A DNA stretch of 64,000 nt from Candidatus Anaerobiospirillum merdipullorum (GTDB lineage Bacteria > Pseudomonadota > Gammaproteobacteria > Enterobacterales > Succinivibrionaceae). The notes under the pieces are model-generated. The model did no database searches, was not told the DNA's origin, and saw nothing but the letters and a program-made list of their open reading frames with translations. Below are positions 22,063 to 39,961 of this stretch, one piece after another. Every line of letters starts with the position of its first letter. Within the stretch, counting starts at the first letter, position 1. The stretch covers positions 1-64,000 of the forward strand of contig JAHLFG010000062.1 of the NCBI GenBank assembly GCA_018883895.1, given 5' to 3'. Both the position numbers and the translations under genes were made by a program.

Positions 22063-23358
22063 ATGGCAGAAAATACCAGCTTACTTGGCAGGCTCAAGAC
22101 CATGCCTCGGGAATATTGGATCTTGTCATGCGCCATGTACTTATTCTTTGTGTCATGGGCAGGATGCTACTCACTGCTGGCCATTTGGCTACAGCGCTTT
22201 TTTGACCTCTCTGGATCGCAGATCGGCTTTACCTATGCCGTCTTCTCGGTAACCGCCTTCCTGTTACAACCGGTTTACGGTCTTATTCAGGATAAGTTAG
22301 TCTTACGCCGTAACTTAATTTTCTACATCGGTATCTTAATGGCCTGCTGCGGTCCGTACTTCATCTTCGTTTGCGAGCCGCTCCTTAAAATGAGCACCAT
22401 CTTAGGTGGTATCTCGGTGGGCGTGTATATGGGCTTTGCCTATCAGGCAGGTGTGGGTGCCTTAGAGTCCTATTCCGAAAGATTCTCCCGTCGCGCCGGC
22501 TTTGAGTTTGGCCACGTCAGAATGTGGGGCTCGATGGGCTGGGCTTCTACCGTCGCCATCACCGGTATTTTAATTAACATCGATCCGCACTATAACTTCT
22601 ATGTTTCCACCGTCGCCGGCCTGTTATTCTTAGTCTGCGTGTGGACTTTAAGAAGCGGTCGCTTTAGCTTATCGGCCGTTGACGTCGATACCACCTCCGG
22701 CAAGGCCGATAAGGTTACCATCTCCACCGCTTTATCCATTACCAAATTACCGGCTTTCTGGGCCTTGGTGGTCTATGTGGTAGGTTGCTCGACCTACTTA
22801 GTCTACGATCAGCAATTCATGGTGCGCTTTGTCGAGCTCTTTGAAGATAAGGAACGTGGTACCGAGCTTTATGGCTACTTAAATTCCACGCAGGTATTCT
22901 TAGAGTTTGCCTGCACCTTCTTAGCCCCGTTTGTGGTCAATAAGATTGGTGCCAAGAACGGCATGCTGCTGGCCAGCACCATCATGTTTGCCCGTATTCT
23001 CTTATCAGGCTTAGTCGATACTCCGTTGGCTATTTCCGCCGTCAAGCTCTTACACGCCCCGGAAATGCCGCTTGTGATTATTTCGCTCTTTAAGTACATC
23101 CCCACCCGCTTCAACCCGGCCTTATCGGCTACGCTGTACTTAGTTGGCTATCAGATGATTACGCAGGTCATGGGTGCGGCGATGGCTCCGGTGGCAGGTT
23201 ATGGCTATGACACCATTGGCTTTGCCCATACTTATGTCATCATGTCCATCTTAGTCTTTGTCACCACCATCCTTTCGTTCTTCCTCTTAAAGAGCATGAC
23301 GGTGGCCGAAGAGCATCGTATCAATCAGGCCATGGCTGCTGCCAATGCCAAAGAATAA
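22063..23358 (+). CDS. cscB: Oligosaccharide:H+ symporter, sucrose permease-like (LacY/CscB family)
   Basis: 431-residue, twelve-segment MFS protein. It shows the oligosaccharide:H+ symporter pattern: LFFVSWAGCYSLLAIWLQ at the N-terminus, GFEFGHVRMWGSMGWA in the loop with the conserved Arg, and LFKYIPTRFNPALSATLYLVGYQ near the C-terminus, as in CscB. It imports sucrose or a related oligosaccharide with protons. AAGGGGA lies 8 nt before the ATG. A GH32 hydrolase follows 31 nt downstream, which supports sucrose or a fructoside as substrate and a non-PTS route. No fructokinase or cscR repressor is adjacent. Confidence 0.85.
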   Translation: MAENTSLLGRLKTMPREYWILSCAMYLFFVSWAGCYSLLAIWLQRFFDLSGSQIGFTYAVFSVTAFLLQPVYGLIQDKLVLRRNLIFYIGILMACCGPYFIFVCEPLLKMSTILGGISVGVYMGFAYQAGVGALESYSERFSRRAGFEFGHVRMWGSMGWASTVAITGILINIDPHYNFYVSTVAGLLFLVCVWTLRSGRFSLSAVDVDTTSGKADKVTISTALSITKLPAFWALVVYVVGCSTYLVYDQQFMVRFVELFEDKERGTELYGYLNSTQVFLEFACTFLAPFVVNKIGAKNGMLLASTIMFARILLSGLVDTPLAISAVKLLHAPEMPLVIISLFKYIPTRFNPALSATLYLVGYQMITQVMGAAMAPVAGYGYDTIGFAHTYVIMSILVFVTTILSFFLLKSMTVAEEHRINQAMAAANAKE

Positions 23359-23389
23359 ATTGCAAGTTGTGCACAGTTAGGAGCAAAAA

Positions 23390-24841
23390 ATGGATTTTCA
23401 GAACCAAATCAAAAAAGCCAATGACTTTATCTTAAATCATCAGGCTCAGGTCAAGAAGGATAACTATCCGTCATACCACTTAGCCGCACCGTATGGCTGG
23501 GTTAATGATCCCAATGGCTTTTGCTATGCCTTAGGTCATTATCATCTTTTCTATCAGCACTATCCCTACGAGGCCAAATGGGGCCCGATGCACTGGGGAC
23601 ACGCGATAAGTGACGATCTGATTCATTGGCAGCATCAACCGGTGGCCTTAGCCCCCTCCGAGCCCTTTGATAAGGATGGTTGCTTCTCCGGCTCGGCCAT
23701 TGAGCATGACGGTAAACTGTATCTAATCTATACCGGTCATGTGTGGCTCAAGGAGCCGGGCAATGACAATTTCATTCGTGAAGTACAGTGCTTGGCAGTC
23801 TCGGAAGACGGGGTGCACTTTGAAAAATTAGGCGTCATCATTGAGCCGCCCGAGGGCGTAATGCACTTTAGAGATCCTAAAGTCTTTAAAGAAGACGATC
23901 ACTTTGCCTTAGTGGTCGGGGCCCGCTACCCTGGCGATGAGGCCCGGGTGCTCAAGTATGTATCGCCCGATCTTAAAACGTGGAGCTTAAAGACCTCGAT
24001 TTTAACGGCCCCGCAACAGGAGGCCTTTATGTACGAGTGCCCGGATACCTTCCCCTTAGATGGGCAATATGTGGTCGCCGTTTCTCCGATGGGTTTAAAG
24101 CCTGAGGGCATTGCCCGCAATAACCCGAGCATCAGCTCCTATGCCGTATCTACAGATCCCGAGCATTTTGACCCGCGTTCGCTGTGTGAAATTGATCACG
24201 GACAGGATTACTATGCCCCGCAGAGCATGCAAGCTCCCGATGGGCGTCGCATTATGATTGCCTGGCAGACCATGTGGAAATTGCCCTTTGCCTCCTATGA
24301 GGACAATTGGTGTGGCATGTTCACGCTGCCGCGCGAGGTGACGCTCCAAGATGGCCGTTTAATTCAAAAGCCGGTGCGTGAAGTAGCTTCTTTGTATAAA
24401 AAGATGCAGGAAATTGGCACCGTCAACTTAGAAAACGACACCTATCGCCTGAAAAAGCAATGCAAGCCCTGCTACTTACATCTGTGCATCAAAGGCGGGC
24501 AAAGCTTTGAAACGGCCGGGGTGAACTTTGGTGATTTTGCCACCCTCTACCTTGACCGACAGCATCAAGAGCTTACCTTGTTGCGCAAGGAAAAGGGCTT
24601 CTTCTCCCCCCGTTCGATGAAGCTTGATCTGCAACGCGATTTGACCTTGGATATCTATGTGGACTATTCGAGCCTGGAGATCTTTGTCAATGACGGTGAG
24701 GATACCTTCAGCTGCACCTTCTATAACGGTAAGCGCAAAGATCTGCATCTCTTTGCCCACAATGGCAAGGTCGAATTTACCGCAGTAAAGCTCTGTGGCC
24801 TCAAGGACGTCTTACGTCAGCAGAAGATGCCGCAGATGTAA
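23390..24841 (+). CDS. cscA: Glycoside hydrolase family 32 sucrose hydrolase (invertase)
   Basis: 483-residue cytoplasmic GH32 enzyme. The nucleophile Asp is in WVNDPNGF (about 38-45), the transition-state stabiliser in HFRDPK, and the acid/base Glu in YECPD. A C-terminal beta-sandwich module follows from about residue 340. It hydrolyses beta-fructosidic bonds; paired with a permease instead of a PTS it should act on free sucrose, as CscA does, rather than on sucrose 6-phosphate. There is no signal peptide. The start has TTAGGAGC upstream. Confidence 0.9.
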   Translation: MDFQNQIKKANDFILNHQAQVKKDNYPSYHLAAPYGWVNDPNGFCYALGHYHLFYQHYPYEAKWGPMHWGHAISDDLIHWQHQPVALAPSEPFDKDGCFSGSAIEHDGKLYLIYTGHVWLKEPGNDNFIREVQCLAVSEDGVHFEKLGVIIEPPEGVMHFRDPKVFKEDDHFALVVGARYPGDEARVLKYVSPDLKTWSLKTSILTAPQQEAFMYECPDTFPLDGQYVVAVSPMGLKPEGIARNNPSISSYAVSTDPEHFDPRSLCEIDHGQDYYAPQSMQAPDGRRIMIAWQTMWKLPFASYEDNWCGMFTLPREVTLQDGRLIQKPVREVASLYKKMQEIGTVNLENDTYRLKKQCKPCYLHLCIKGGQSFETAGVNFGDFATLYLDRQHQELTLLRKEKGFFSPRSMKLDLQRDLTLDIYVDYSSLEIFVNDGEDTFSCTFYNGKRKDLHLFAHNGKVEFTAVKLCGLKDVLRQQKMPQM

Positions 24842-26078: not shown

Positions 26079-26384
26079 CTTGATCCTTAAGTGACCCCAG
26101 GTCATCCATACTTGGCAAAAGGTAAATTTTACTTAAAGCTTAATTCCCCGCGACCTTCCAAGCAAGCCTTTGAGGCCCCAGCGTATTTAACCTATCCACA
26201 GCTTAATTTTAACTATTTACTTAATATTAGGAGAGATTTACTTTCTGTGACACCATACGAAAAGCTACTATCATACCGCCGTCACCGAAGGACTATGCAG
26301 AAATTCTTCAGTGACAAATCCTATCCCGGGGATGGGTGGAAAAATGCTTAATATACCCGCTTGAATTTGAGGCTGCTATTAAGA

Positions 26385-26418
26385 GCAAAAAACCAACCGG
26401 TTAAAGATCCCGGTTGGT
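26385..26418 (-). terminator. Terminator of the sugar porter operon
   Basis: On the minus strand ACCAACCGG (26418-26410) pairs with CCGGTTGGT (26400-26392) across a 9 nt loop and is followed by TTTTTTGC. It lies just past the sugar porter stop. Confidence 0.88.
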
Positions 26419-26439
26419 AAGGTGAGGATTTAAGGTAAA

Positions 26440-27825
26440 TTATGCCTTGACTAAAATTTTCTCTAATTGCTCTAAGGAGACGCCCTTAGTTTCCGGCACT
26501 TTCTTGTAGATGAAGATGAAGCTTACCGCGCAAATGATGCAGTACAGGCCAAAGGAGCCCGAGGCGCCTAAGGCGGCATTGATCATCGGGAAAGTGTAGG
26601 TTAAAAGGAAGCAACCGACCCATAAGGACAAGGTCGCCAGCGACATCGCCATACCTCTGATGCGATTGGGGAAGATCTCCGAGAGTAAAACCCAAGTCAC
26701 CGGCGCCAAGGTAATGGCATAAATGAAGATGGTAGCTAAGACTAAGGCCAGTACCGGCAGACCTAAGATGCCTAAGGCATAGGCAGTAGCCATCAGGATA
26801 TAGATGATGGTAAGGCCACCTGCGCCTAAGAGCATTAAGCGCCGACGCCCAATCTTATCGACTAAGGGGAGCGCCACCACGGTGGCAATAAGGTTGATTA
26901 AACCGGTGGCTACAATGGACTTTAAGGTGCTGTTGATATCAAAGCCGGCCGAGGCAAAAATTTCCTGGGCATAGTTAAAGATCACATTGGTGCCCGACCA
27001 CTGTTGATAGAAGGCCAAGTAACAACCAATGATTAAGACCGGCAGATACTTCTTATCTAAAGTCTCCTTTAAGGAAGCTGAGGCCTTCTCATCGCCACGT
27101 AAAGTTACCTTAATTTCATTTAAGGTAGCCTTAGCATAGTCGCTGCCGCCCAAACGAGTCAGCACTGCCACGGCCTCAGCATCACGCCCTTTCTTAACTA
27201 AAAAGCGCGGGGACTCCGGAACAAAGAACATCAGTACAAAGAAGGCCACCGCCGGTACCAATTCTGCCCAGAACATATAGCGCCAGCCCATTTGCCCGTT
27301 CCAGCTTGCTGCAATGTCAGCTAAAGTTGCATTAGCACTTACCGACTCAGCAATCATAAGATTTACAATCTGCGCGGCCAAAATACCTATAACAATGGTC
27401 AACTGATTGACCGCCACCATCTTGCCGCGGCGATCCGCCGGGCTCATCTCGGCGATATAGACCGGAGAAATACCGGAGGCAATACCGATACCAACACCAC
27501 CGACAATACGGTAGAACACAAACCACGAGAAGTCGTCATAGTAACCGGTACCCCAAGCAGATACGGTAAAGAAGATGGCGGCAATAATCAAAGTCTTCTT
27601 ACGGCCGATATTATCGGACATGTAGCCCGACACCATCGCACCTGCAATACAACCCACCAGCGCCGAGCTCATCGCCCAGCCGGAGGTAAACGGATCGGTA
27701 ATGTTAAAGAAGGCTTCATAAAATGGCTTAGCGCCACCAATTACCACCCAATCGTAGCCAAAAAGCAGACCACCACAGGCAGCCACCAGGCATACTAACC
27801 AAATAAACGCGGTATTAAGTTGCAT
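26440..27825 (-). CDS. MFS sugar porter family transporter (XylE/AraE-like)
   Basis: 461-residue, twelve-segment sugar:H+ symporter. Family signatures are present: DNIGRKKTL after segment 2, PESPRFLVKKGR before the central loop, QQWSGTNVI in segment 7, DKIGRRRLML after segment 8 and PETKG at the C-terminus. Likely substrates are xylose, arabinose, galactose or glucose. It lies 15 nt downstream of the DUF5107/TPR gene in one operon, so the two products probably serve the same sugar. GCGAGG precedes the ATG with long spacing. Confidence 0.92.
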   Translation of the reverse strand: MQLNTAFIWLVCLVAACGGLLFGYDWVVIGGAKPFYEAFFNITDPFTSGWAMSSALVGCIAGAMVSGYMSDNIGRKKTLIIAAIFFTVSAWGTGYYDDFSWFVFYRIVGGVGIGIASGISPVYIAEMSPADRRGKMVAVNQLTIVIGILAAQIVNLMIAESVSANATLADIAASWNGQMGWRYMFWAELVPAVAFFVLMFFVPESPRFLVKKGRDAEAVAVLTRLGGSDYAKATLNEIKVTLRGDEKASASLKETLDKKYLPVLIIGCYLAFYQQWSGTNVIFNYAQEIFASAGFDINSTLKSIVATGLINLIATVVALPLVDKIGRRRLMLLGAGGLTIIYILMATAYALGILGLPVLALVLATIFIYAITLAPVTWVLLSEIFPNRIRGMAMSLATLSLWVGCFLLTYTFPMINAALGASGSFGLYCIICAVSFIFIYKKVPETKGVSLEQLEKILVKA

Positions 27826-27840
27826 AAATATTAACCTCGC

Positions 27841-30800
27841 TTAAGCAATGAAGGAAAGGATGATGTCGTGAATCGAGGCGTAGAGAGCTGCCTTGTAGCT
27901 CGACGGATTAATGGTTTTCATCTGTTGCAAACAAGCTCGATAGGTAGCCTCATCGTGAAAGCCCAAGGCTGCCAGCATTTGCAATAAATAGGCGTTTTCA
28001 TCGCGCTCGGCCGCTTCATCTTTGTTAAGTACAATGAGATCAGGTAAGGAGACGGCAAAGAAATCACTTGCAATCGGCGCGCCAACTGCCTGCTTACCAT
28101 AGCGTTGCATCGCCTGTAAGATGCGCTCAGCGCCCGCTTTATCCCCACGCTTGGCTAAAGCTAAGGCATTGAAGAACACATAGTCAGCTTTTTGATCGTT
28201 GTAGTAGCGCTGCTCATGCACCTGACTGTCACCGCGGCAGGCCATAGCATAGGAAGCGGCCGCCTCATCCATAAGGCCCATGCGCTCTTCGACCGCACCT
28301 TTTAAGAAGTAGAGGTCGTTGTCCGTTTGCACCACCAACTTGCCCTCACCCAAATTGTGCGGGAAGGTTAAAGCGCAAGTTAAAATGTCACGGGCTGTAG
28401 ACCAATCTTGCTTGGCGATAGCCTGCGCTGCTCTTAAGATGCCATTTATCACATACTGCTCGGAAACACGCCCTTCACCACCTTCCCAGACATGGAAGTT
28501 AGACTTTTGGATAAAGGTATGAGCATCCTCCACCCTGCCGACTAAATTTAATAAGGTGAGATATTCCGCCTTAAGATCGTCGCGCTTAAAGCTGTACGGC
28601 TTGGCCTGCTCTAAACGGTCCAAACGCTCCTGTGCCGGGACTTTGGCCAGCTTTTCCACCAATGAAAGCTCAAAGAGTAAGCGCTCATCGTTAGGGGCAA
28701 TGGCCACCGCTTGACGATACAGCGCCAAAGCCTTATTGATGTCCTGATGCTGATTGCATGCATCGATGGCGATACCGCGCAAGGCATCAACATAGTTTTT
28801 ATCCAGCGTTAAAACCTGTTGCCACAGCTCCACGGCCTTGGCATATAAGCGATGGCTATAGTCAAAGCAGGCACACAGATGCAGGGCAAAGGCACTATCG
28901 GTTAAGGTACCTAACATCACGCGCTCAAAGACACTATTGGGGAAGCGGACAAAGGCAGCAAAGTTTTGCTGTGCTTGTGCATACAGAGCCTCACGCTTTG
29001 TAGGAGCACTTAAAGCGGCCATCACCAGGGCAATTAAGGCGCCTTTAGTGTGGGCATTTACTTTATTTAAAAGCTCTAGGGCCTCGGTTTGAGCGCCCAC
29101 AGCGGTTAAAAACTCCGCCACGGACAAATAATTAATCTCGCGGCCGTTTAACACTTGCTCTAAATGTGCCAAAGCATCAGCACTGCTATCTTGAGCATAA
29201 TTTAAATAGGCATATAGCGGCTCCAGCGGTGCTTGTGCCTGCAAAGTAGCAATCAAGCTTGTAGCCTGACTATCCCCGCTCTTTAACAGACCATAGGCCT
29301 TTAAGGCCAGAGCTTTGACATCTTGGGCATCGGTAAGCAAAGCCTCTGCGGCAAATTGCGCACAAGCAGCAAAATTACCACGCCGCGCACTGATAGTGGC
29401 CAAACCATTAAAGCCTTGCGTCTTGCAATTGGTCGACCACACCGCGCGGAAATACTCATCATAGGCCGCATCCAACTTACCCTGTTGCAAAAGCACATCG
29501 GCCTTTAACACCAGCGCCTGCCCGCACTCACAATTGCGATTTAACATTAAGGCTCTGTGCAAAGCCTGATTGGCATACTCTAAGGCCGCGGTAAAATTGG
29601 CACGCTCATATTCATACTGCCCTAAGGCGGTATTGCAACGATAATCTAGCGGATCAATTTGCAAAGCACGGGCATAATAATCCTCCGGCCGCCGTGAGGC
29701 ATGATGATATTGCTCTAAGTGCTTGGCAATAAAATAAGCCTCATCGGTAGAGTTAATCTCCTGCGGCAAGCGCGGGGTCGGGGCAATTTCCGGTAGCGGC
29801 AATGCTTGCTTGATATGCTCGCCATAAGAGAGCACTATCGTGCCATCTGCGGCCATCAGGCGCATCTGACAACGCGCTGCGGGGGCTGCTACTTCCCACA
29901 ATTGCGCCTGACACGGGCTTAAATTCAGCTCCTTTTCATCAATAACTTGCCCGTCAGCTAAGATTTGCGCCTTAACTTGCTTTAAATAGCCCACGGCATA
30001 GACGCCCACCTTAAACTTGCCCTCCTCACGCTCTAACTTTAAGGCGGCAGTAGTATTGGCATTGTGCACGCGTCCTAACTTGGTATAGGGCATGAAGTTT
30101 TGGGTAAATTCCTTGCTTTCATGGGCGCCAATCCAGGTAAAGTCCGGCTGATTGTCGGTATAGACACCGGTCATCAGCTCAATATAGGGGCCGTCTTCAT
30201 CGGTTAAATTGCGATCCCAGGCCTGACCAAAATCGCCATTGCCCCAGGTCCACTGCTTCTTGCCCGGCGCGATATGATGATCAGCGACATGTAACAGGCC
30301 GCCTTCTTCATTAAAACTATAGGCCCCGACGAAATCGTAATTGGAGCGCCAAGCCATATAGGAGGTCGGCACCGGCAGATTCTTATAGCGCGAAATATCT
30401 ACGCCGTCGTATTTGACCTTGTAGTACTCGCCATGAGCTATCGGGAAATCGATCACCGCGCGCTTACCATGGTCAAAGACCGCGGTCACATCCGGCGGGA
30501 AAATGCTTTGATGATCGTCCCCACCCTTGACGGCCGGATTGGACCACCACAGGAAGGAGCGGGCGGTCTCATTGCCGTTGTAAATCTTGCTGTGAATTTG
30601 TAACAGGGCCTTATCGGCAGGTAAGGTAAAGGTGGTGGTAATGGTCAACCCGTGCATCGGCTCTTTTTCGGACACTACCACGCTAGCCGAGCCATCTTCA
30701 TGGTTTTGTACCATGCCATCGACGGGCATAAAGGTGGTCGGACGATGATGTTGCGGCCAATTAAACTCAATACCACCGGAAATCCACGGACCTAACAGGC

Positions 30801-31113
30801 CCACCATGGCAGGTTTGACCACCTGATTGAAGTAGACGAAATCGCGGTGATTGACCTTATCGTAGGCGCGTTGGACGCGACCGCCCAATTGTGGCAGGAT
30901 CATCACCTTAAGAAAATCATTTTCTAAAATTAAAGCCTGATAAGGACGCTTTTCGGCCTTATCTTGTAAGGTATCAGTGACCCCATAGGGATAAACCTTG
31001 CCCGAAGAGCCCTGATAAACGCGATGCTCTAAAAACATCGGGTGCTTATCTTGTGGTCCTAAGAGGTAGGTTTTAAACCATACTGTTTCTGACCATGCCT
31101 TAGCAGCGACCAT
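27841..31113 (-). CDS. DUF5107 domain protein with C-terminal TPR repeats
   Basis: 1090-residue soluble protein with no signal peptide. Residues about 1-450 form a beta-rich region with the DUF5107 pattern: LILENDFLKVMILPQLGGRV, GGIEFNWPQHHRPTTFMPVDG, and FVGAYSFNEEGGLLHVADHH. It reads like a mutarotase-type beta-sandwich (compare LPQLGGRV with aldose epimerases), which would suit carbohydrate binding or catalysis; that is inference. Residues about 480-1090 are TPR helices (YYARALQIDPLDYRCNTALG, LALYRQAVAIAPNDERLLFE). It leads an operon with a sugar porter, opposite a ROK regulator and aldose epimerase. No biochemical function is established to my knowledge. Confidence 0.85.
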   Translation of the reverse strand: MVAAKAWSETVWFKTYLLGPQDKHPMFLEHRVYQGSSGKVYPYGVTDTLQDKAEKRPYQALILENDFLKVMILPQLGGRVQRAYDKVNHRDFVYFNQVVKPAMVGLLGPWISGGIEFNWPQHHRPTTFMPVDGMVQNHEDGSASVVVSEKEPMHGLTITTTFTLPADKALLQIHSKIYNGNETARSFLWWSNPAVKGGDDHQSIFPPDVTAVFDHGKRAVIDFPIAHGEYYKVKYDGVDISRYKNLPVPTSYMAWRSNYDFVGAYSFNEEGGLLHVADHHIAPGKKQWTWGNGDFGQAWDRNLTDEDGPYIELMTGVYTDNQPDFTWIGAHESKEFTQNFMPYTKLGRVHNANTTAALKLEREEGKFKVGVYAVGYLKQVKAQILADGQVIDEKELNLSPCQAQLWEVAAPAARCQMRLMAADGTIVLSYGEHIKQALPLPEIAPTPRLPQEINSTDEAYFIAKHLEQYHHASRRPEDYYARALQIDPLDYRCNTALGQYEYERANFTAALEYANQALHRALMLNRNCECGQALVLKADVLLQQGKLDAAYDEYFRAVWSTNCKTQGFNGLATISARRGNFAACAQFAAEALLTDAQDVKALALKAYGLLKSGDSQATSLIATLQAQAPLEPLYAYLNYAQDSSADALAHLEQVLNGREINYLSVAEFLTAVGAQTEALELLNKVNAHTKGALIALVMAALSAPTKREALYAQAQQNFAAFVRFPNSVFERVMLGTLTDSAFALHLCACFDYSHRLYAKAVELWQQVLTLDKNYVDALRGIAIDACNQHQDINKALALYRQAVAIAPNDERLLFELSLVEKLAKVPAQERLDRLEQAKPYSFKRDDLKAEYLTLLNLVGRVEDAHTFIQKSNFHVWEGGEGRVSEQYVINGILRAAQAIAKQDWSTARDILTCALTFPHNLGEGKLVVQTDNDLYFLKGAVEERMGLMDEAAASYAMACRGDSQVHEQRYYNDQKADYVFFNALALAKRGDKAGAERILQAMQRYGKQAVGAPIASDFFAVSLPDLIVLNKDEAAERDENAYLLQMLAALGFHDEATYRACLQQMKTINPSSYKAALYASIHDIILSFIA

Positions 31114-31332
31114 TTATTAATCTCCTATGAATAATCTCTTGGCAAAAATTACAGTCTGGAGTATATAAAGGGGCAAATAAGCTTTCTGTACCCAGTAATC
31201 ACAGTATTTATTAAGGCTTGGTTAATAATAAGTAAAATAAATTCCTTGAAGATAATCTGTTGTTATTAAAAGAATAATTTTCTTTAAACCCGGAGTCCCA
31301 CGCGCTTAATGGCGTAGCTCCGCGCAACTTAC

Positions 31333-31345
31333 GCAAGCGTTTGCA
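31333..31345. promoter_or_regulatory. LacI/PurR-type operator upstream of the DUF5107 operon
   Basis: GCAAGCGTTTGCA, in the context ACGCAAGCGTTTGCAT, nearly equals the PurR box and matches the core before the sucrose permease. It lies in the 464 bp divergent region (31114-31577) between the DUF5107 operon and the ROK gene, which holds no other gene. Confidence 0.5.
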
Positions 31346-31577
31346 TTTATTGCACCGCAAGCTATTTCTTAACGCATAAATCCCCCGCTAACGCGCCCTT
31401 TGCCCGAGTTTAAGCCGAATTTGAAGGGTATTTAGCGGCCTATTTAATGCTTTATTTAAATACTATTAATAATTACACTGCAAAAAGCCGTAATAAGGCC
31501 CAAAGAAAACGCACAATAAGGTATTTTTTTGCTAGAATCACAGAATAAATTAAGATGATATTAATAGAGAGTGTCAG

Positions 31578-32777
31578 ATGTTACAGGGTCTTAACAATCA
31601 AAAAGTTCTAAGCTTTAACCAAAGCCTGCTCCTGCATAACCTTTACATTCATCAAAAGCAATCTGCAGCGGCATTGGCCAAAACCATGGGACTGTCGGTG
31701 ACGGCCGTCTGTCGCTTAGCTGAAACCTTAATTGCCGAGGATAAAGTGGAATACGTTAAAGGAGATAAACCCACCCGCGGGCGCAGTAGTGGTTTATTAA
31801 CCTTAAAGCACCATCAGGGCTTTATCGCTTGCCTTAACGTGCGTCCGACGGCCATTGATTACCTGATGACCACTGAATATGGTGAGATTGTAGAGGACAT
31901 AAAGTTCCTGCCCATCACCCTGACCACCAAGGAAGATTTGGTGGCCACCCTCAAAGAGCTCATTGCCACGTTACACTCAAACTACCCCAAAGCGCCTTTT
32001 AAAGTGGCCATTGCCATGCACGGACAGGTGGATTACCAAACCGGCGTCTCCTTGTTTATGCCTCAGGCGCCCTGGCACTCAAGTTTGCACTTAAAGTATC
32101 TGCTACAAAAGGATTTGGGTATTGAAGTCCTGGTGGACAACGACTGTGTGATGCGCGCCTTGGCGCAAAAATGGGCCCTACTGCGCAGCGACAGTGAACT
32201 GCCTGATTTGTGCGTTATCAATATCGACTATGGCGTGGGCTCGGCCTTTTTAGTCAATGGATCCATTTTCCGCGGTCCCTTGTATTCCAGCGGCCAAATC
32301 GGCCACACCATTGTCGATCCCAATGGCCGCATTTGTTCATGTGGGCGCGTGGGTTGCCTGGAGACCATTGCTTCGGCCAAATCCCTGCAAGAAAACATCA
32401 ATCGTCAGCGCCGTTTACTGCATATGGAGACGGCCTTGAGCTTTGAGGAGCTACTGTCAGCTTATCAACAAGGCGATCTGATGGTGATGCAGGCCGTGGA
32501 TTTTGCCGCCTTAAACCTGGGCCGGGCCATTTATAATTTTTTAAATGTCATTAACATCAATCACATTTATTTATATGGGCGCATGTGTGAATTTGGCGCG
32601 CCCTTTTTAAGTCGCATCCGTGAGCAGGCTTTGTTAAATCCCTTTGATGACGGCTCGCTAATTAAAAGTGTCGCCACCTCCATTGAGCTTGGCACCCTCA
32701 GTGAGGCTGAGCAATTGGCCGGCATCGGCTTTTTATATGCTGAAAACACCTTACTTGACCTGGGACTTAATGGGTAA
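31578..32777 (+). CDS. ROK family transcriptional regulator
   Basis: 399 residues. An N-terminal winged helix (LAKTMGLSVTAVCRLAETLIAEDKV, about 34-58) marks the NagC/Mlc/XylR regulator branch of the ROK family. The kinase-like domain follows, with VDNDCVMRALA, the IDYGVGSAFLVNG phosphate-type loop, HTIVDPNGRICSCGRVGCLE as the ROK zinc signature (CxCGxxGCxE), and C-terminal helices. It is divergent from the DUF5107-sugar porter operon and followed by an aldose epimerase, so it probably senses the sugar those genes handle. Confidence 0.9.
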   Translation: MLQGLNNQKVLSFNQSLLLHNLYIHQKQSAAALAKTMGLSVTAVCRLAETLIAEDKVEYVKGDKPTRGRSSGLLTLKHHQGFIACLNVRPTAIDYLMTTEYGEIVEDIKFLPITLTTKEDLVATLKELIATLHSNYPKAPFKVAIAMHGQVDYQTGVSLFMPQAPWHSSLHLKYLLQKDLGIEVLVDNDCVMRALAQKWALLRSDSELPDLCVINIDYGVGSAFLVNGSIFRGPLYSSGQIGHTIVDPNGRICSCGRVGCLETIASAKSLQENINRQRRLLHMETALSFEELLSAYQQGDLMVMQAVDFAALNLGRAIYNFLNVININHIYLYGRMCEFGAPFLSRIREQALLNPFDDGSLIKSVATSIELGTLSEAEQLAGIGFLYAENTLLDLGLNG

Positions 32778-32781
32778 CACC

Positions 32782-33624
32782 ATGAAACTTCTTACATTAA
32801 ATAACAAATACTTAACTTTAGGCTTAGACCCCTGCGGGGCACAAATTTGCTTTTTTGCCACTAAAGACGGTTTTGATATTTTACAAAGACGCCCCCACCT
32901 AGGGGAGGCCAATGACGAAAGTGCGCTTTTTCCCTTGCTACCCATAGCCAATCGCGTAAGTCACGATAGCTATCACTTAAACGGCGAGCACATCAACCTA
33001 CCGCTTAACTTAAAAGCCGGCCAATATTTGCACGGCGACGGCTGGGTCAATACGTGGCAGGTAAAGGAAAAGTCAGAGAGCAGTGCCACACTCACCCTTA
33101 ACATCAACCATGACAATGGCTATGTCTATACCGCTTGCTTTGCACTTAAGTTACAGGCTTTAAGCTTGAAGCTTACGCTGACGGTCTGTCATCAAGGCAG
33201 CAAGCCGCGCCTGTATGGTTTGGGGCTACATCCCTATTTTGCCTTAGATGACAGCGCCACCTTACACTTTGCCAGTGACGGCTATTTCCCTGAAGGCGCC
33301 GGGCATATGAGTCTGCCCTTTACGACCTCCATCCCCACAAGCGAGGACTTTAATCGCCCGCGCGCCATTCCACCTTACTTTGTAAATCAGCTCTATCATA
33401 GTAGTAGCCCGCTTTACTATACGCGCCAAGGTAGAAGGATGTGCCTTAGCTCTAACTGCCCGTATCTGATGCTCTATCATCTGCCGCAGGGCTCCTTTGT
33501 AGCCTTAGAGCCCCTGATGCATGAAATTGATGCGGTCAATAAGCCGCAACACCCGGGGATGGTGCTCCTGCAAAAAGGCCAAACGACAAGCTTACACGTC
33601 AGCATTGAGCTCTTAGCAAGCTAA
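32782..33624 (+). CDS. Aldose 1-epimerase family protein
   Basis: About 280 residues with the galactose-mutarotase fold pattern: LPIANRVSHDSYHLNGEHINLPLNL, the HGDGWVN segment, GLGLHPYF with a candidate catalytic His, and VALEPLMHEIDA with the candidate catalytic Glu. It interconverts sugar anomers. The start is uncertain: ATG at 32782 is 4 nt after the ROK stop, while ATG at 32770 overlaps that gene by 8 nt and has GGGA in front. Either way the two genes are translationally close and probably co-regulated. Confidence 0.8.
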   Translation: MKLLTLNNKYLTLGLDPCGAQICFFATKDGFDILQRRPHLGEANDESALFPLLPIANRVSHDSYHLNGEHINLPLNLKAGQYLHGDGWVNTWQVKEKSESSATLTLNINHDNGYVYTACFALKLQALSLKLTLTVCHQGSKPRLYGLGLHPYFALDDSATLHFASDGYFPEGAGHMSLPFTTSIPTSEDFNRPRAIPPYFVNQLYHSSSPLYYTRQGRRMCLSSNCPYLMLYHLPQGSFVALEPLMHEIDAVNKPQHPGMVLLQKGQTTSLHVSIELLAS

Positions 33625-33696
33625 CAAAATTTTTAATTGTGACAATAATTTGCTATCATAACCCTCCTTTTTTCTCAGGTATTGATGAGGTAAGTT

Positions 33697-34098
33697 ATGA
33701 CGGCGCCATTGTCTTCTGCCATGCATGATTTCTTGTCCATCAGCGTACAAGAAATCTCCGCCACCCACTTAGTGGCCACCATGCCGGTCACGGAGCGTAC
33801 CTGTCAGCCCTGTGGTTTGTTATGTGGCGGCGCATCCCTGGCCTTAGCTGAGATCTGCGCGGGCATGTATTCACAGCATTTATTGCAAGGTAGCGATGAG
33901 ATGGCCTTAGGGATACAGGTAAATGGCCATCATTTACACGTGGCGCATTTAGGGGAGATAGTCTCTTGTGAAATCACCCCGCTTAGCTGTGGCAAAACGC
34001 TACATGTTCTGCAGGCCAAAATTTCCAATGCCAGCGGCACCTTAGTGTGTGAAGCGACCATTACTAATTTAATCCGCCCCCAGCCCCACGACAGCTAA
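33697..34098 (+). CDS. menI: Hotdog-fold thioesterase (MenI/YdiI-like)
   Basis: 133-residue PaaI/YdiI-type hotdog protein heading the menaquinone cluster; the expected role is hydrolysis of 1,4-dihydroxy-2-naphthoyl-CoA. The core QPCGLLCGGASLALAE aligns with the YdiI core QPFGLLHGGASVVLAE. The catalytic Gln and Glu are kept, but the conserved His is replaced by Cys, and the Ser four residues after the Glu is Gly. Activity may thus be altered or follow a different mechanism. GATGAGG precedes the ATG. The gene is 13 nt upstream of menF. The symbol rests on context and family. Confidence 0.72.
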   Translation: MTAPLSSAMHDFLSISVQEISATHLVATMPVTERTCQPCGLLCGGASLALAEICAGMYSQHLLQGSDEMALGIQVNGHHLHVAHLGEIVSCEITPLSCGKTLHVLQAKISNASGTLVCEATITNLIRPQPHDS

Positions 34099-34111
34099 TT
34101 AATTTATACCG

Positions 34112-35227
34112 ATGATAGACTTAACCCCCGTGCCGGACGATTTTTGTCGGGCTTTACAGGCATTAATGTCCCGCAAGGAGCGCTTTGCCTTGTTGCGTTT
34201 GCCCACGCAAAGCATGCTCCATATCATGGTGGACGACCATAAATTACATCAAAAGGCTGAACCTGACTTAAGTTTAGTCCCCTTTATTCCCACGCAGACG
34301 CCTTTAAATATCACGGCCCGGGCGCGTTTGACTTGCCTGCCCCATGCCCTAGCGACAAGTTTAGTTAACCTCGGGCTGTTAACGGCAAGCGAGCTTGCTG
34401 CCACGGCCTTAGAGCAAGTAGCCCCGTCACCGTCCATTAAAGCTCAGTGCCGCAAGCTAAATGCTGCGGCCCAAGAGCGCTATGAGAAAGCTTTTTCTCA
34501 TTTCACCCGCGCTTTAAGTTCAGGACGCCTGCAAAAATTGGTGCTCGCCCGTCCTTATTACTGTCAACTGCGCCGACCAGTGGCGCAAACGCTGTGGCAC
34601 TTACTACAGCACTATCCCCAAGCTTGCGTGTATTTTATCTATGTGGGCAATGGAAAGTTCTACCTTGCCGCCACCCCGGAAACCTTGGCGGTAATTGAAG
34701 GTAAGCGGCTTAAGACCATGTCACTTGCCGGCACCATGGCAAAAGATCCCGGGGCTAATTATCTCTGGTCAAAGAAAAATAAGCATGAACAACAATTAGT
34801 TACCGACTATATCGTGCAAGTCTTAAAGCCCTATAGTCAAGACATCGCCCTGCATGGACCGCACACGCATGACGCAGGACCGGTGGTGCATCTGTGCACT
34901 CAGATTGAGGCCACGCTTAAAGATAAGGTCAATCCTGCCGCGGTTATTGCCGCTTTACATCCCACCCCGGCAGTGTGCGGTATTCCCACCGTCGCCGCCA
35001 TGGACTTTATTTGCAAGCATGAAGGGCTGTTACGCGACTATTACGCAGGATATATCGCCTTTAAAGATGAGTCTGCCTGGCGCGTGTATGTCAATCTGCG
35101 CTGTTTGTATTTTGATGGCACCATGGCCTGTCTCTATGCCGGCGGAGGGATTGTACCTGGCTCTGTACTCAATGCCGAATGGCAAGAGACGGTCAATAAA
35201 CTTAAGGCCCTACAGGAATTGCTGTAA
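34112..35227 (+). CDS. menF: Isochorismate synthase MenF
   Basis: 371-residue chorismate-utilising enzyme that isomerises chorismate to isochorismate with magnesium, the first committed step of menaquinone synthesis. Visible motifs: LQKLVLARPY with the catalytic base Lys, AATPETLAVIEG, SLAGTM, KNKHEQQLVTDYI, LHPTPAVCGIP, DYYAGYIAFKD and YAGGGIVPGS with the terminal EWQET. It is about 60 residues shorter than E. coli MenF at the N-terminus, similar to Bacteroidetes enzymes. There is no clear RBS. The stop codon abuts the menD ATG. Confidence 0.92.
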   Translation: MIDLTPVPDDFCRALQALMSRKERFALLRLPTQSMLHIMVDDHKLHQKAEPDLSLVPFIPTQTPLNITARARLTCLPHALATSLVNLGLLTASELAATALEQVAPSPSIKAQCRKLNAAAQERYEKAFSHFTRALSSGRLQKLVLARPYYCQLRRPVAQTLWHLLQHYPQACVYFIYVGNGKFYLAATPETLAVIEGKRLKTMSLAGTMAKDPGANYLWSKKNKHEQQLVTDYIVQVLKPYSQDIALHGPHTHDAGPVVHLCTQIEATLKDKVNPAAVIAALHPTPAVCGIPTVAAMDFICKHEGLLRDYYAGYIAFKDESAWRVYVNLRCLYFDGTMACLYAGGGIVPGSVLNAEWQETVNKLKALQELL

Positions 35228-36880
35228 ATGTTCAGTAGCAAAGAAAATGTGCTCCTTACCTTAGCCTTGTTGCGTGCCTATGGCATCAAGCAGGCCGTTT
35301 TATGTCCCGGCTCACGCGATATTCCGCTGGTGCAGGGTTTGGCGCAATGCCATGAGATTAGCTGTCACTCCTTTACCGATGAGCGCGCGGCAGGTTTTGC
35401 CGCCATTGGTTTGATCCTGCAAACTAAAGCGCCCTGTGCGGTGGTGGTAACCTCAGGATCTGCGCTGTTAAATCTGCATCCGGCCGTCTGTGAGGCCTAT
35501 TATCGCCATCTGCCTTTATTAATCATTTCAGCCGATCGCGCCGCAGCCTGGATTGGACAAAATGACGGGCAAACTCTGCCACAAATAAATGTCTTTAATT
35601 CCTTGGTCAAATACTGTGGCCAGGCTTGCGAGGTAAAGGATAAGCTGGATGCCTGGCACTGTGAGCGGACGATTAAAGAGGCCCTCTTGGCCCTCACCAC
35701 CCCGCCTTTTGCCCCGGTACAGCTCAATGTCCCCATTGGCGATCCTTTCTTTGACTTTAGCGTAGCAACCCTACCGGTGCTACAGCCGCTTGAGGCCGCA
35801 AGTTTGGCTGATTTACCCACCATCTGCGCGCGCTATCGGCGTATTGCCCTTATTTTAAGTGCCAGTGATTTGGACACGCCACCCACTGGTGCCCAACAAG
35901 AGGCGCTCGCTGCGCGCTTTGTGATCATCGCCGAGCAATTGTCCAATGCCCAGCAGGCCTGCTTTTTAAATTACCCCGAGCTGTGGGCCGGGCAGCTTTT
36001 AAAGCAAGATGCCACCGCGCAAGCGCAAATGGCGCCTGATTTGGTGATTACCTTGGGCGGGCAAATTTTATCTAAGGCTCTAAAGCGTTATCTGCGCCTT
36101 TGTGATTGCGATCATTTAGATTTAAGCGCCGATGGCACGGTGGCCGATGTTTTTATGCATGAGCGTTATATCATCAAGGCTTCATATAGTGACGCCCTTC
36201 ATGCCCTGTGTGCGCTGCCCCAGGAGAAGTTAGCGCCGCCGTATTTGGCGCCGCAAGATTATGCACTCAAGACCTCCCCCAACCGCGTAGTTTTACCCTA
36301 CAGCCATATTGGGATGTTGCAACGACTGCTCAATGCCTTGCCCCCTCACAGCGTGCTGCATTTGGCCAATAGCTCCACCGTGCGCTATGCCGCCTATTTT
36401 GCCCTCCCGCCACAGGTGCGCGTCTATGCCAATCGCGGGGTCAATGGCATTGAAGGCTCGCTGTCCACCGCCGTGGGCGCGGCCCTGGCCGATCCGGAGC
36501 ACTTACACTTTGTCTGCATCGGCGATCTGTCCTTTTTCTATGATTTAAATGCGCTGTGGACGCGCGGGATGGTGAAAAACTTACGCGTCATCTTATTTAA
36601 TAACTCCGGCGGGGAAATTTTTGCCGCATTGCCGGGGCTGAAGCTCGATGCGCGCGCAGCTAACTTTGTCACCGCCCCTCATCAGACCTCGGCTCTGCCA
36701 TGGGCGCAATCCTGTGGCTTTAAGGTAGCCACGGTAACAAGCGCTGCACAAATGGATGCCTTGTTGCCAAAGCTACAACAAACAAGCGCCGCCCCCTATC
36801 TAGTGGAGGTAATGACAAAGGTAGATGACGACTTGGCGGCAGTAAAACAATTAACCACCGCGCTCATTACGACTAATTAG
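35228..36880 (+). CDS. menD: 2-succinyl-5-enolpyruvyl-6-hydroxy-3-cyclohexene-1-carboxylate synthase MenD
   Basis: 550-residue thiamine-diphosphate enzyme that joins isochorismate and 2-oxoglutarate. The N-terminal PYR domain has [11 protein letters not shown] and the cofactor-activating Glu in [12 protein letters not shown], and the PP domain has [13 protein letters not shown], the GD(x)nN metal motif. [17 protein letters not shown] and [17 protein letters not shown] are typical MenD segments. The ATG directly follows the menF stop, implying translational coupling. Length is normal. Confidence 0.95.
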
Positions 36881-36909
36881 TGCTTAATTTTTACTTTGTG
36901 AGGAAAGAT

Positions 36910-37764
36910 ATGGCTCAAGATACTGGCATGCACCGCCCGCACAGCAGTGGGCGTCAATGGCAAAGCATTGTAGAGTACAACGATATTTTATTTGATTATT
37001 GGCAAGGCATCGCGCGCATTACCATTAACCGCCCGCGCTATCGTAATGCCTTTACCCCGACCACGGTCAAGGAATTAAGTGACGCCTTTTTACGCTGTCG
37101 CGAGATGGGGGAAGTACGCGTAGTCTTTTTAACCGGCAGTGGCGATAAGGCCTTTTGCTCCGGGGGCGATATGCATGTCAAAGGCCGTGGCGGCTATGTT
37201 GATGAAAATGGGGTGCCGCGCCTTAATATCCTTGATGTGCAAAAGCAAATTCGCACCCTACCCAAGCCCGTGGTGGCCTTGGTTAACGGCTATGCCATTG
37301 GTGGCGGACAGGTCTTACAGGTAGTGTGCGATCTCTCCATTGCCGCCGACAATGCCATTTTTGGTCAGACCGGTCCTAAAGTAGGCTCTTTTGATGCCGG
37401 CTTTGGCTCTTCGTATTTGGCACGCGTGGTCGGACAGAAAAAGGCCCGCGAAATATGGTTCTTATGCCGCCAATACAGTGCACAAGAGGCTTTACAGATA
37501 GGTCTTGTCAATACAGTGGTGCCTTTTGTCAAGCTTGAAGACGAGGGCGTGGCGTGGGCGCAACGGATGATGGAATTAAGCCCGCTGGCCTTGCGCATGA
37601 TTAAGGCCGGACTTAACGCTGAGCTTGACGGACAGACCGGCATTCAAGAATTGGCCGGCGATGCCACCATGCTCTATTACATGACCGATGAAGCGCAGGA
37701 AGGGGGCCGTGCCTTTTTAGAAAAACGTCAGCCGCAATTTAACTTAAAGCCGCGTTGCCCTTAA
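36910..37764 (+). CDS. menB: 1,4-dihydroxy-2-naphthoyl-CoA synthase MenB
   Basis: 284-residue crotonase-fold enzyme that closes the naphthoquinol ring from o-succinylbenzoyl-CoA. Motifs: [39 protein letters not shown] (oxyanion hole), [19 protein letters not shown] and [16 protein letters not shown]. The C-terminal part ([19 protein letters not shown]) is as I remember it from Bacteroides MenB. The ATG at 36910 is preceded by GTGAGGAAAGAT; an in-frame GTG at 36880 overlaps the menD stop and is not needed. Confidence 0.95.
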
Positions 37765-37773
37765 GGAGAAGTC

Positions 37774-38910
37774 ATGCCTGCCACCTTAAAATTGCAGCTT
37801 GTCAAAAAAAGACTGCACTTTAAATTTAAAGCCGGCACCTCACGGGGATGGTATGAGACGCGCGATGTGGCCTATGTCTGCCTAATACAGGAGGAAGGTA
37901 AGATCCGTACCCTCTTAGGTGTCGGTGAAGCAGCTCCCTTGCCAAAGCTTTCTCCTGAGTGGCCTCAAGGCAAAAGCTTTGATGACTATGTGGCAACCCT
38001 TACTCCCCTAATAGCGCAGGCTGAAGCCTATCTGCCAGCGTGGCTTGATGATCCTGCCCCCATCCCGCCATTGACGGAGCTTGAGCATGCTCTGCGCGGG
38101 CACAGTGCCTTGCGTTTTGCCTTAGAAACTGCCATCTTACAGGCCAAGGCCGGCTCGTTTGCGCTTTTTGACAGCCCCTTTGCCCGCGGACAGAGCGCCA
38201 TTACCATCAATGGCCTGATTTGGATGGGCGATTTTGCGCTGATGCGGCAACGTATTGAGGAAAAGCTCAGTCAGGGTTTTAACTGCCTCAAGCTTAAAAT
38301 CGGTGCCATTAACTTTAAGCAAGAATTAGAGCTCTTAGCTCTAATACGCCAGGAATTTGATGCTACTAAGCTTACCTTACGCGTCGATGCCAATGGGGCC
38401 TTCAGTCCCCACGAGGCCATGGATAAATTAGAGCAATTAGCACGTTTTGATCTGCACTCCATTGAGCAGCCCATCAAGGCAGGACAATGGCAGACCCTGG
38501 CGCATTTATGTAAGCAAAGTCCCATCCCCATTGCCCTGGATGAAGAGCTAATTGCCCAGGAAGGTACACAGCGCGTGCGCCTGCTTGAGAGCGTTAAGCC
38601 GCAGTTTTTAGTCCTCAAGCCCTCCTTACATGGCGGACTTTCGGGCGCCATGCACTATCTTCAATTGGCAGCTGACTTTAAGCTCGGCGCGTGGATGACC
38701 TCAGCCTTGGAATCGTCCATTGGCCTTAACGCCATTGCCCAATTTATCGGTTACCGCCAATTAAGTGGTTTTCAGGGTTTGGGCACCGGGCAATTATTTA
38801 CCGACAATCTGCCCTTTCCGGTCTTGTGCTTAGACGGGCAAAACATGCGCTTTGATAGAAGCAAGATAAATGCCATCGACCCGAAGTCTTATCTAAACTA
38901 TGTACCTTAA
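37774..38910 (+). CDS. menC: o-Succinylbenzoate synthase MenC
   Basis: 378-residue enolase-superfamily dehydratase forming o-succinylbenzoate from SHCHC. Catalytic features in order: KxK in NCLKLKIGA, Asp in RVDANGAFS, Glu in SIEQPI, Asp in ALDEEL, and Lys in VLKPSLHGG. The N-terminus (KAGTSRGWYETRDVAYVCL, then GVGEAAPLPKLS) and the C-terminal GLGTGQLFTDN correspond to the Bacteroidetes-type OSBS and not to the shorter 320-residue enterobacterial enzyme. AAGGAGAAGTC precedes the ATG. Its end overlaps the menE start by 11 nt. Confidence 0.93.
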   Translation: MPATLKLQLVKKRLHFKFKAGTSRGWYETRDVAYVCLIQEEGKIRTLLGVGEAAPLPKLSPEWPQGKSFDDYVATLTPLIAQAEAYLPAWLDDPAPIPPLTELEHALRGHSALRFALETAILQAKAGSFALFDSPFARGQSAITINGLIWMGDFALMRQRIEEKLSQGFNCLKLKIGAINFKQELELLALIRQEFDATKLTLRVDANGAFSPHEAMDKLEQLARFDLHSIEQPIKAGQWQTLAHLCKQSPIPIALDEELIAQEGTQRVRLLESVKPQFLVLKPSLHGGLSGAMHYLQLAADFKLGAWMTSALESSIGLNAIAQFIGYRQLSGFQGLGTGQLFTDNLPFPVLCLDGQNMRFDRSKINAIDPKSYLNYVP

Positions 38911-39961
38911 CGATTGTTTTATCGATGAAAAGGCGCTCAATAGCGCCAATGTGGAGCGCTGGGTGCAAGAAAAGATGCCCACGGCCGACGCCTTTTGCCG
39001 CCAATGCCTGCACTTTATGGCCCACTTTTTAAGCCCGGCGCCTACCATAACCGTGCAAACCTCCGGCTCAACCGGCACCCCCAAAGCCCTAGAGGTGGAA
39101 AAAGCCCGTATGCGCGCCAGCGCCCGCATGACCGGCGCGTACTTAGGGCTTAAACCCGGCGCGCGGGCCTTATTGTGCATGCCTCTTGAGCATATTGCCG
39201 GCATGATGGTGGTGGTGCGCGCCTTGGAGCTAGGTCTATCCCTTTATACCGTTACCCCCTGTGCCGATCCTTTTGCCCATGCGCCTTCTAAGCTTGATTT
39301 TGCCGCCATTACCCCGATGCAGGCCCATTGTGTGCTCCAACAAGAGCGCAGTAGAGCAGTTTTGGCTACTTGTCGGCAGATTATCGTCGGCGGCGGCTTT
39401 ATTAGTGCTGATCTCAATGCTACCTTGGGAAAATTACCCACGCAGATTTATCACAGCTATGGCATGACCGAGACCCTATCGCATATTGCGCTGCACCGGA
39501 TTGATGCCCTTAAGCCGCAAGCGCCCTTCTATCCTTTGCCGCACGTGCGCCTAAGTTTAGATAAAGACGGCGCTTTGTGCATTGACGCACCTGCCGTCGC
39601 CGCCACCGCGGTGCAGACCAATGACTTGGCCACCATCAATGCAGATGGCAGTTTTGTCATCTTGGGCAGGCGCGATAATGTGATTAATTCCGGAGGCATT
39701 AAGCTTATCCCGGAATTAATTGAAGAAAAATTAAGCGCCGTCATTAAAAGCCCCGTGGCCATAAGCGCTAGGCCTAGTGCACGCTATGGGGAGGAAGTGG
39801 TCTTAGTAAGTGAAGTCCCGCTTGATGCGGGGGTGCTGCAACAGGCCTATGCCACCCTTGGCCGCTATGAAAAGCCCAAGGCCCTTATCATCGCGCCTAT
39901 TCCGCGCACGGCCACGCAAAAAATCGATCGCCTGCGCCTAAAACAATCCTTAAGTGGCTAA
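38900..39961 (+). CDS. menE: o-Succinylbenzoate--CoA ligase MenE (short form)
   Basis: 353-residue acyl-CoA synthetase that activates o-succinylbenzoate. The ATP loop TSGSTGTPK is followed by LLCMPLEHIAGMMVVVRAL, HSYGMTETLSH, LGRRDNVINSGGIKLIP, and the C-terminal lysine region TATQKIDRLRLKQSL. E. coli MenE is about 450 residues; the compact N-terminus here, with the phosphate loop near residue 56, is the Bacteroidetes form. It overlaps menC at the start and the convergent kdpE gene by 12 nt at the end. No menH, menA or ubiE lies in the cluster. Confidence 0.9.
   Translation: MYLNDCFIDEKALNSANVERWVQEKMPTADAFCRQCLHFMAHFLSPAPTITVQTSGSTGTPKALEVEKARMRASARMTGAYLGLKPGARALLCMPLEHIAGMMVVVRALELGLSLYTVTPCADPFAHAPSKLDFAAITPMQAHCVLQQERSRAVLATCRQIIVGGGFISADLNATLGKLPTQIYHSYGMTETLSHIALHRIDALKPQAPFYPLPHVRLSLDKDGALCIDAPAVAATAVQTNDLATINADGSFVILGRRDNVINSGGIKLIPELIEEKLSAVIKSPVAISARPSARYGEEVVLVSEVPLDAGVLQQAYATLGRYEKPKALIIAPIPRTATQKIDRLRLKQSLSG

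Follow-up and report, generated by a model that had tools for sequence, protein, structure and literature searches.

What is the function of a large protein with a DUF5107 domain and a TPR array that is encoded among sugar genes? The question is raised by a 64,000-nucleotide stretch of Candidatus Anaerobiospirillum merdipullorum (contig JAHLFG010000062.1, positions 1 to 64,000; hereafter the window), in which a 1090-codon open reading frame (ORF) is open on the minus strand at 27841-31113, while the plus strand there is full of stops. We found that the encoded protein, judged by its sequence, is a member of the YphG family and the counterpart of Escherichia coli YphG. On balance, we slightly favor a catabolic module in which a dedicated porter, a mutarotase and a regulator serve a cytosolic YphG acting on galactose or a small galactoside. 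YphG would then probably be an enzyme, neither an ordinary mutarotase nor just a scaffold, and we infer a galacto-configured substrate. Family membership, synteny, the mutarotase fold in a confident model, the invariant residues, the pocket shared by the linked porters and the co-occurrence of that pocket with YphG are established.

A YphG Family Member among Sugar Genes

A preliminary description had reported a DUF5107/TPR protein of 1090 residues in an operon with a sugar transporter, with ROK and aldose epimerase genes opposite. The ORF and the Pfam matches confirmed the protein, its strand being minus, and the arrangement was found as described. The sugar porter gene follows the YphG-type gene on the same strand after 15 bp, which makes a common operon likely, and the ROK gene is divergent from the YphG-type gene, 464 bp away, with the aldose epimerase gene next to it. 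The features are as follows.

27841-31113, minus strand: YphG-type protein, 1090 residues (DUF5107 and TPR), from the ORF, Pfam and identity to E. coli YphG
31122-31126, minus strand: Shine-Dalgarno-like AGGAG, 8 nt upstream of the ATG of the YphG-type gene
26440-27825, minus strand: XylE-like sugar porter of the major facilitator superfamily, 461 residues (Sugar_tr, E 1.5e-107), with the pocket N298/Y383/A388/L415 in XylE numbering
31578-32777, plus strand: ROK-family regulator, YphH counterpart (40.6% identity to E. coli YphH)
32770-33624, plus strand: aldose 1-epimerase, YphB counterpart (29.9% identity to YphB; start 32770 or 32782, the ORF opening at 32668)

Pfam DUF5107 (PF17128) matched residues 39-326 of the large protein (E 3.2e-56, 191 bits, curated cutoff 24.4), and TPR_11 also exceeded its Pfam cutoff (28.7 vs. 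26.8), the repeats lying C-terminal to DUF5107; none of the NCBIfam profiles scored above cutoff against it. The identity to E. coli K-12 YphG (b2549) was 48% over 1094 columns. This similarity is full length, the PQHHR and WEGGEG motifs of the subfamily are present and invariant, and the window also has the gene order of the gammaproteobacterial form, with a YphH-type ROK gene and a YphB-type epimerase gene. The E. coli genes yphB, C, D, E, F and G share a strand and yphH is divergent; where E. coli has the YphDEF ABC transporter, the window has a sugar porter, and a YphC dehydrogenase gene does not adjoin.

Relatives are encoded by at least 595 stretches among the genome contigs searched, and the best 80 of these match over nearly the whole length, with 39-50% identity in the best segment. 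Therefore, the ORF is not a product of chance, and an isolated orphan protein is ruled out. The term "uncharacterized" in the preliminary description thus holds in part: the protein is not an isolated unknown, as it belongs to a family that includes E. coli b2549, but the annotation of E. coli YphG (1093 residues) consists of the domain name alone. A search of the open-access literature, with subscription papers and preprints outside it, found no functional study of yphG, and a table entry in the open literature gives DUF5107 as "unknown function".

Judged by their record titles, the 66 YphG-type sequences compared span eight phyla. In a quick tree of these proteins, the window sequence grouped with nine Pseudomonadota sequences (support 100), but its branch is long and its exact place therefore unsure. 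A DUF5107 match was present in 1 of 41 genomes around the window's own, solely the window genome itself, and in none of another 273 genomes from the class, sampled around an Edwardsiella genome. These counts speak against YphG as an old property of the window lineage and make a sporadic gain or loss likely. By a crude hydrophobicity test that used no signal-peptide program, a signal-like N-terminus was not seen in 78 of 81 YphG proteins, which suggests that YphG is probably cytosolic.

Predicted Fold and Conserved Residues

An AlphaFold model of the window protein, built with a 66-row alignment, had a predicted local distance difference test score (pLDDT) of 89.2 and a predicted template modeling score of 0.89. 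The parts of the protein and its conserved motifs, with invariance counted over the 66 YphG-type proteins, are as follows.

30070-31113, minus strand: galactose-mutarotase-fold domain (DUF5107), residues 1-348, from the AlphaFold model, structure search and conservation
29818-30069, minus strand: second all-beta segment, residues 349-432, poorly conserved, with predicted strands in 356-431
27844-29766, minus strand: TPR superhelix, residues 450-1090, from Pfam TPR and the AlphaFold model
30733-30780, minus strand: motif SGGIEFNWPQHHRPTT, residues 112-127, with S112, G113, G114, E116, F117, N118, P120-R124 and T127 invariant
28468-28497, minus strand: TPR loop of the FHPWEGGEGK type, residues 873-882, with F873, W876, E877, G878, E880 and G881 invariant (YphG branch)
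28336-28362, minus strand: TPR loop PxNLGEGKL, residues 918-926, with P918, L921, E923 and L926 invariant
28192-28203, minus strand: TPR loop YNDQ, residues 971-974, with Y971 and D973 invariant
28039-28059, minus strand: TPR loop FAVSLPD, residues 1019-1025, with F1019-S1022 and P1024 invariant

The mutarotase-like beta region and the long TPR array of the preliminary description were both recovered in the predicted fold. In the structure search (VIA), residues 3-346 matched galactose mutarotases with Z 23.1 (2.9 and 2.7 Å, 261 residues), the match to Bacillus subtilis GalM being Z 23.1 and 2.9 Å over 261 residues. Residues 640-1090, folded separately (pLDDT 92.0), matched TPR superhelices such as OGT and SPY with Z up to 15.4, where, according to the tool's note, Z up to about 13-14 is common among helical repeats; this superhelical fold and the TPR profile matches point to a TPR superhelix. 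The best structural match was BDI_1685 of Parabacteroides distasonis (PDB 5cd6), a short form of DUF5107 protein with a 580-residue chain (Z 34.1, 3.8 Å, 540 residues; phmmer E 3.6e-20 against the window protein). Beyond mutarotase-fold and TPR or other helical-repeat chains, the 50 matches listed from each structure search contained no convincing further family, which is not evidence of absence.

GalM (e.g., 4bze and 1l7k) shares the fold of residues 3-346 and, by pattern, a Glu in the corresponding C-terminal strand. Unlike GalM, YphG has no detectable profile similarity, no His pair that can be seen by pattern, and an added TPR superhelix. Pfam Aldose_epim gave no match to the large protein at E up to 1, and hhalign with small alignments against 12 YphB-type and 10 GalM-type proteins was not significant (probability 0.3 and 0.1 percent). 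The His, His and Glu of GalM and YphB, which we take to be their catalytic residues, would correspond to S112, N192 and E312 of YphG when placed by eye on sequence patterns. Thus, the mutarotase fold is present in the model and a sequence-profile relationship was not found. Because a mutarotase gene is often nearby and there is no profile match, an ordinary mutarotase was ruled out as the first choice.

The invariant residues of the 66 YphG-type proteins were distributed unevenly: the first domain has 103 among 348 positions, the second all-beta segment 1 of 84, residues 450-860 have 17 of 411, and residues 861-1030 have 18 of 170. In the last region the 69 non-helical residues include 14 of the 18, compared with 4 invariant positions among the 91 non-helical residues of 450-860 (Fisher p 0.002). 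These counts define two separate conserved parts of the sequence, namely the predicted cup of mutarotase fold and, close to where the superhelix ends, four loops (WEGGEG, NLGEGKL, YNDQ and FAVSLP). The preliminary description had pointed to conserved His/Asp/Glu-rich segments as candidate parts of an active site, and this fits the conservation found: in EFNWPQHHRPTT (residues 116-127), E116, H122, H123 and R124 are invariant in the 66 YphG proteins, and E116 and H123 are also kept in 17 of 17 other DUF5107 proteins. E116, H123, W190, K286 and E312 are identical in all 83 proteins of this second comparison (66 YphG and 17 others). The first-domain pocket with E116, H123, K286 and E312 is put forward as a putative active site, over which the four loops at the distal end of the superhelix would close. 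As a sign of a glycoside hydrolase, the invariant acidic pair E116/E312 is only suggestive.

The HHR motif is present in YphG proteins and, among the 17 other DUF5107 proteins, in L144 alone. WEGG was found in seven Bacteroidota YphG proteins and L144 and was missing from ten other DUF5107 proteins, all in one comparison set. Since this pattern may reflect one or a few evolutionary events, the subfamily difference is a weak sign of contact between loop and domain. The pLDDT of the FAVSLPD loop was 51 when the C-terminal part was folded separately and 70 in the block, a drop that hints at contact with the first domain and is too weak to count. A 600-residue P. distasonis protein (L085), whose letters agree with 5cd6, lacks the HHR motif as well as the WEGGEG and NLGEGK loops.

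A Sugar Porter Class That Travels with YphG

The porter pocket was compared in 38 linked porters longer than 400 residues (37 loci and the window), all of which were nearest XylE when compared with XylE, GalP and AraE. The XylE D-xylose symporter is the best solved relative of the window porter (E about 1.5e-84). The linked porters kept Q168, Q288, Q289, N294, N325 and W392 of XylE, and yet a distinct set of residues occupies the rest of the pocket: Y383 and L415 in all 38 (the window included), N298 in 36 and A388 in 35. At positions 383, 415, 298 and 388, XylE has F, Q, Y and G, and GalP has F, N, Y and G. The change from XylE to the linked porter is thus Y298 to N, F383 to Y and Q415 to L, and with N298 and L415 the window porter lacks the pocket common to XylE, GalP and AraE (Y298 with Q or N at 415). 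A passage of PMC3853582 gives Y298 and Q415 of XylE as contacting xylose, and earlier work cited in a passage of PMC7427733 found xylose transport lost in alanine variants near xylose, including those of Y298 and Q415. Because these residues are changed here, the porter substrate is probably other than xylose, and GalP-like handling of galactose would not be implied either.

Nine of ten genomes searched for strong sugar-porter matches gave 22 porters, and the pocket was present in 8 of 8 YphG-linked porters versus 1 of 14 unlinked ones, the single exception belonging to a genome whose YphG has no adjacent porter. The same association was seen in 198 Bacteroidota genomes (cutoff E 1e-130, at most eight candidates per genome scored, 30 of 32 matches read, the two unread ones both in one YphG-positive genome). 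The pocket occurred in 8 of 8 YphG-positive genomes, or 7 of 7 if the seed G041 is set aside, compared with 2 of the remaining 190; the Fisher p of 8.9e-13, which includes the seed, overstates independence, as the genomes are related. A porter class that co-travels with YphG, even when the two genes are unlinked, argues for a shared substrate. In genome G229, the pocket-bearing porter (L253) is not adjacent to YphG; nearby are a YphB homologue, a gene of glycoside hydrolase (GH) family GH31, a galactonate-dehydratase-like protein (230 bits, cutoff 311) and a GH97-like ORF (30% identity).

Two Bacteroidota genomes have a YphG-type porter pocket and no YphG (loci L249 and L250). One of these porters lies by two sulfatases and a GDSL lipase, the other by citramalate/isopropylmalate genes, and a replacement enzyme for YphG was not found in the two neighborhoods.

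Gene Neighborhoods of YphG

Neighborhoods extending to at most six genes ahead of YphG and seven behind it were counted in the 80 best-scoring of the at least 595 loci, a sample biased to close relatives. A sugar porter was found in 39 loci, GH2, GH35, GH36, GH95 or GH97 in 32, and GalM or YphB in 30. The preliminary description had named homologues not linked to sugar genes as one half of the result that would speak against it; at least one of these genes was present in 57 of the 80 loci. Porters occurred in 14 of 19 gammaproteobacterial loci and 25 of 61 others, including 24 of 26 in Bacteroidota as read from record titles. The regulators were ROK in 20 loci and AraC in 32.

Neighbor identities were taken from one protein per cluster, scanned first, and two more later. 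The cluster representatives were GH2 near exo-beta-1,4-galactosidase (1232 bits, cutoff 1500), GH35, GH97 near retaining alpha-galactosidase (643 bits, cutoff 800), GH36, GH95 and GalM. The GalM and GH scores were below the NCBIfam equivalog cutoffs, except GalM PRK11055 in L045 (241 vs. 240). GH53 was found in 2 of 67 further neighbors. YphG of the spirochaete locus L021 is surrounded by a galactonate dehydratase that exceeds its cutoff (574 vs. 311 bits), a short-chain dehydrogenase/reductase, an SGL lactonase and a LacI-like regulator, a set that suggests an oxidative galactose route. The Chloroflexota locus L073 has dehydratases of the galactonate-dehydratase superfamily, below all cutoffs.

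As controls, forty 19-kb segments were taken elsewhere in six YphG-positive genomes (14, 14, 6, 4, 1 and 1). None of the 40 contained porter, GH2/35/36/95/97, GalM or AraC homologues of these clusters; SusC was present in 3 and an ABC ATPase in 1. DUF5107 matched in 23 of 198 Bacteroidota genomes drawn around G041, and the seven YphG loci of this draw (L137-L143, G041 excluded) contained AraC in six, a porter in five, GH2 in four, SusC in three, and GH36 and GalM in two each. Three Bacillota loci (L147-L149) fitted more poorly: one had GH2 and GH35, two had AraC, one had GH5, and none had a porter.

By the same hydrophobicity test, Bacteroidota GHs within three genes of YphG had signal-like N-termini, and the Bacillota and bifidobacterial GHs and two enterobacterial GH36 did not. 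This pattern suggests that the sugar is probably freed outside the cell, or in the cytosol after import.

One Bacteroidota genome has a PL8 (polysaccharide lyase) gene (L138:3996-6008) two genes away from YphG, which is unusual for a galactose module. In L148:12552-14755, from a genome drawn around a Paenibacillus, DUF4432 and Gfo/Idh/MocA oxidoreductase genes follow YphG. In some genomes, a second large DUF5107 branch in Bacteroidota (L128-L135, the "SGGIEFNFGIIGHTP" type) has GH123-type, FG-GAP/ASPIC or arylsulfotransferase-like proteins as neighbors; the substrates of other DUF5107 branches may therefore differ.

Possible Function of YphG

In the favored catabolic module, the porter, or YphDEF or another ABC transporter, would import a galacto-configured sugar or small galactoside, which YphG would convert in the cytosol; E116 and E312 would serve as the acid-base pair, and H123 and K286 would bind the sugar or stabilize charge. 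The YphB/GalM-type mutarotase alongside would adjust the anomer for GalK or galactose dehydrogenase, the product would enter ordinary galactose metabolism, and the ROK or AraC regulator would control expression of the module. LacZ and GalM work together in this manner, one anomer being released and the mutarotase following, and a mutarotase so often nearby would fit an enzyme whose product is a single anomer. For the reaction, which is the least certain part of this module, acid-base cleavage of a small galactoside can be proposed with some hesitation.

Several observations weigh against this module. A plain-galactose porter would be expected to be GalP-like and the linked porter is not, so the sugar carried may be other than plain galactose. 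In 23 of the 80 loci, some of them on short contigs, there was no porter, mutarotase or GH of the listed families; 4 of 8 curated-model comparisons for GHs and dehydratases were below the model cutoffs; the 67 other operon neighbors carried 103 Pfam families, most seen once, including carbamoyl-phosphate synthase and DNA methylase; and GH5, PL8 and unrelated housekeeping genes also adjoin YphG. The contact of the TPR loops with the first domain is one that we infer. Moreover, the sole expression datum seen is not galactose-specific: in a passage of PMC8753852, YphF protein was up 3.0-fold and 4.6-fold on levoglucosan versus fructose in engineered E. coli.

Conversion of a free monosaccharide by mutarotation, isomerization or epimerization, with E312 as the GalM base and other residues as the acid, is less favored than galactoside cleavage and seems to us rather doubtful. 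The fold (Z 23.1) and the place of E312 at the catalytic Glu of the GalM/YphB pattern, by eye, agree with it, as does the interchange of the porter and the YphDEF-type ABC transporter at the same locus, both transporter types being chiefly monosaccharide carriers. On the other side, a second ordinary mutarotase would be redundant in the 30 of 80 loci that already have GalM or YphB nearby, the two His are replaced by S112 and N192 by pattern, and the hhalign probabilities were negligible with these small alignments. An intracellular sugar sensor or scaffold, binding a galacto-sugar on the first domain and partner proteins on the TPRs, would account for the frequent regulator genes (ROK 20 and AraC 32 of 80), and TPR superhelices usually bind proteins. 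ROK and AraC regulators, however, usually sense ligands themselves, and conservation lies in the first domain and a few C-terminal loops while the TPR array is mostly variable, so we consider this role improbable. Of the two roles left open by the preliminary description, enzyme or scaffold, the enzyme fits the conservation pattern better and the scaffold less well.

The substrate could also be another galacto-configured sugar, such as L-arabinose pyranose, D-fucose or a substituted galactose, a possibility of modest weight. The porter shares Y383/A388 with AraE and not with GalP and also has L415, and the Atlantibacter locus L008 encodes an IlvD/EDD dehydratase close to L-arabinonate dehydratase (819 bits, cutoff 882); the galactosidase-family neighbors and the one galactonate dehydratase above cutoff point instead to galactose. 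Together, the porter signature and the galactose-type neighbors narrow the question to a short, testable list of sugars, and the residues to mutate are named. If the favored module is right, one assignment would cover both a new family of carbohydrate-active enzymes and a specificity class of sugar porters. A bolder extension of the catabolic module, which we regard as speculative and rather unlikely, is that DUF5107 is an unrecognized family of carbohydrate-active enzymes. Its cup would carry the new catalytic set E116/H123/K286/E312, completed in YphG by the TPR loops; the small galactoside cleaved by YphG, which might even be galactosylglycerol derived from galactolipids of plants, would be supplied via the enlarged-pocket porter class.

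Other Genes of the Window and Its Genome

The window epimerase has 3nre as its best solved relative (E 6.9e-29) and retains all three residues of the GalM/YphB pattern (His, His, Glu); H122, H188 and E281 of its ORF are invariant among 12 YphB-type proteins. Short AT-rich inverted repeats are present between the ROK and YphG-type genes, where no NagC/Mlc-like operator match was found. Over 26100-33800, promoter-like and terminator-like matches were no commoner than in shuffles (12 vs. 10.5 and 8 vs. 9.7). On another contig of the genome, a galactokinase (PF10509 over cutoff) adjoins an ORF read as a putative galT, which suggests that the YphG module is probably not the sole galactose route.

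At 22063-24841 (plus strand), a permease of the LacY type (464 bits to the NCBIfam galactoside permease model, cutoff 429) lies beside a GH32 enzyme in the sucrose-6-phosphate hydrolase family (396 bits, cutoff 356), and the pair looks like a separate uptake system for sucrose or fructo-oligosaccharides. At 34112-39961 (plus strand), a run of ORFs resembles, from the translations, menaquinone biosynthesis genes (isochorismate synthase, MenD, MenB, MenC and MenE types).

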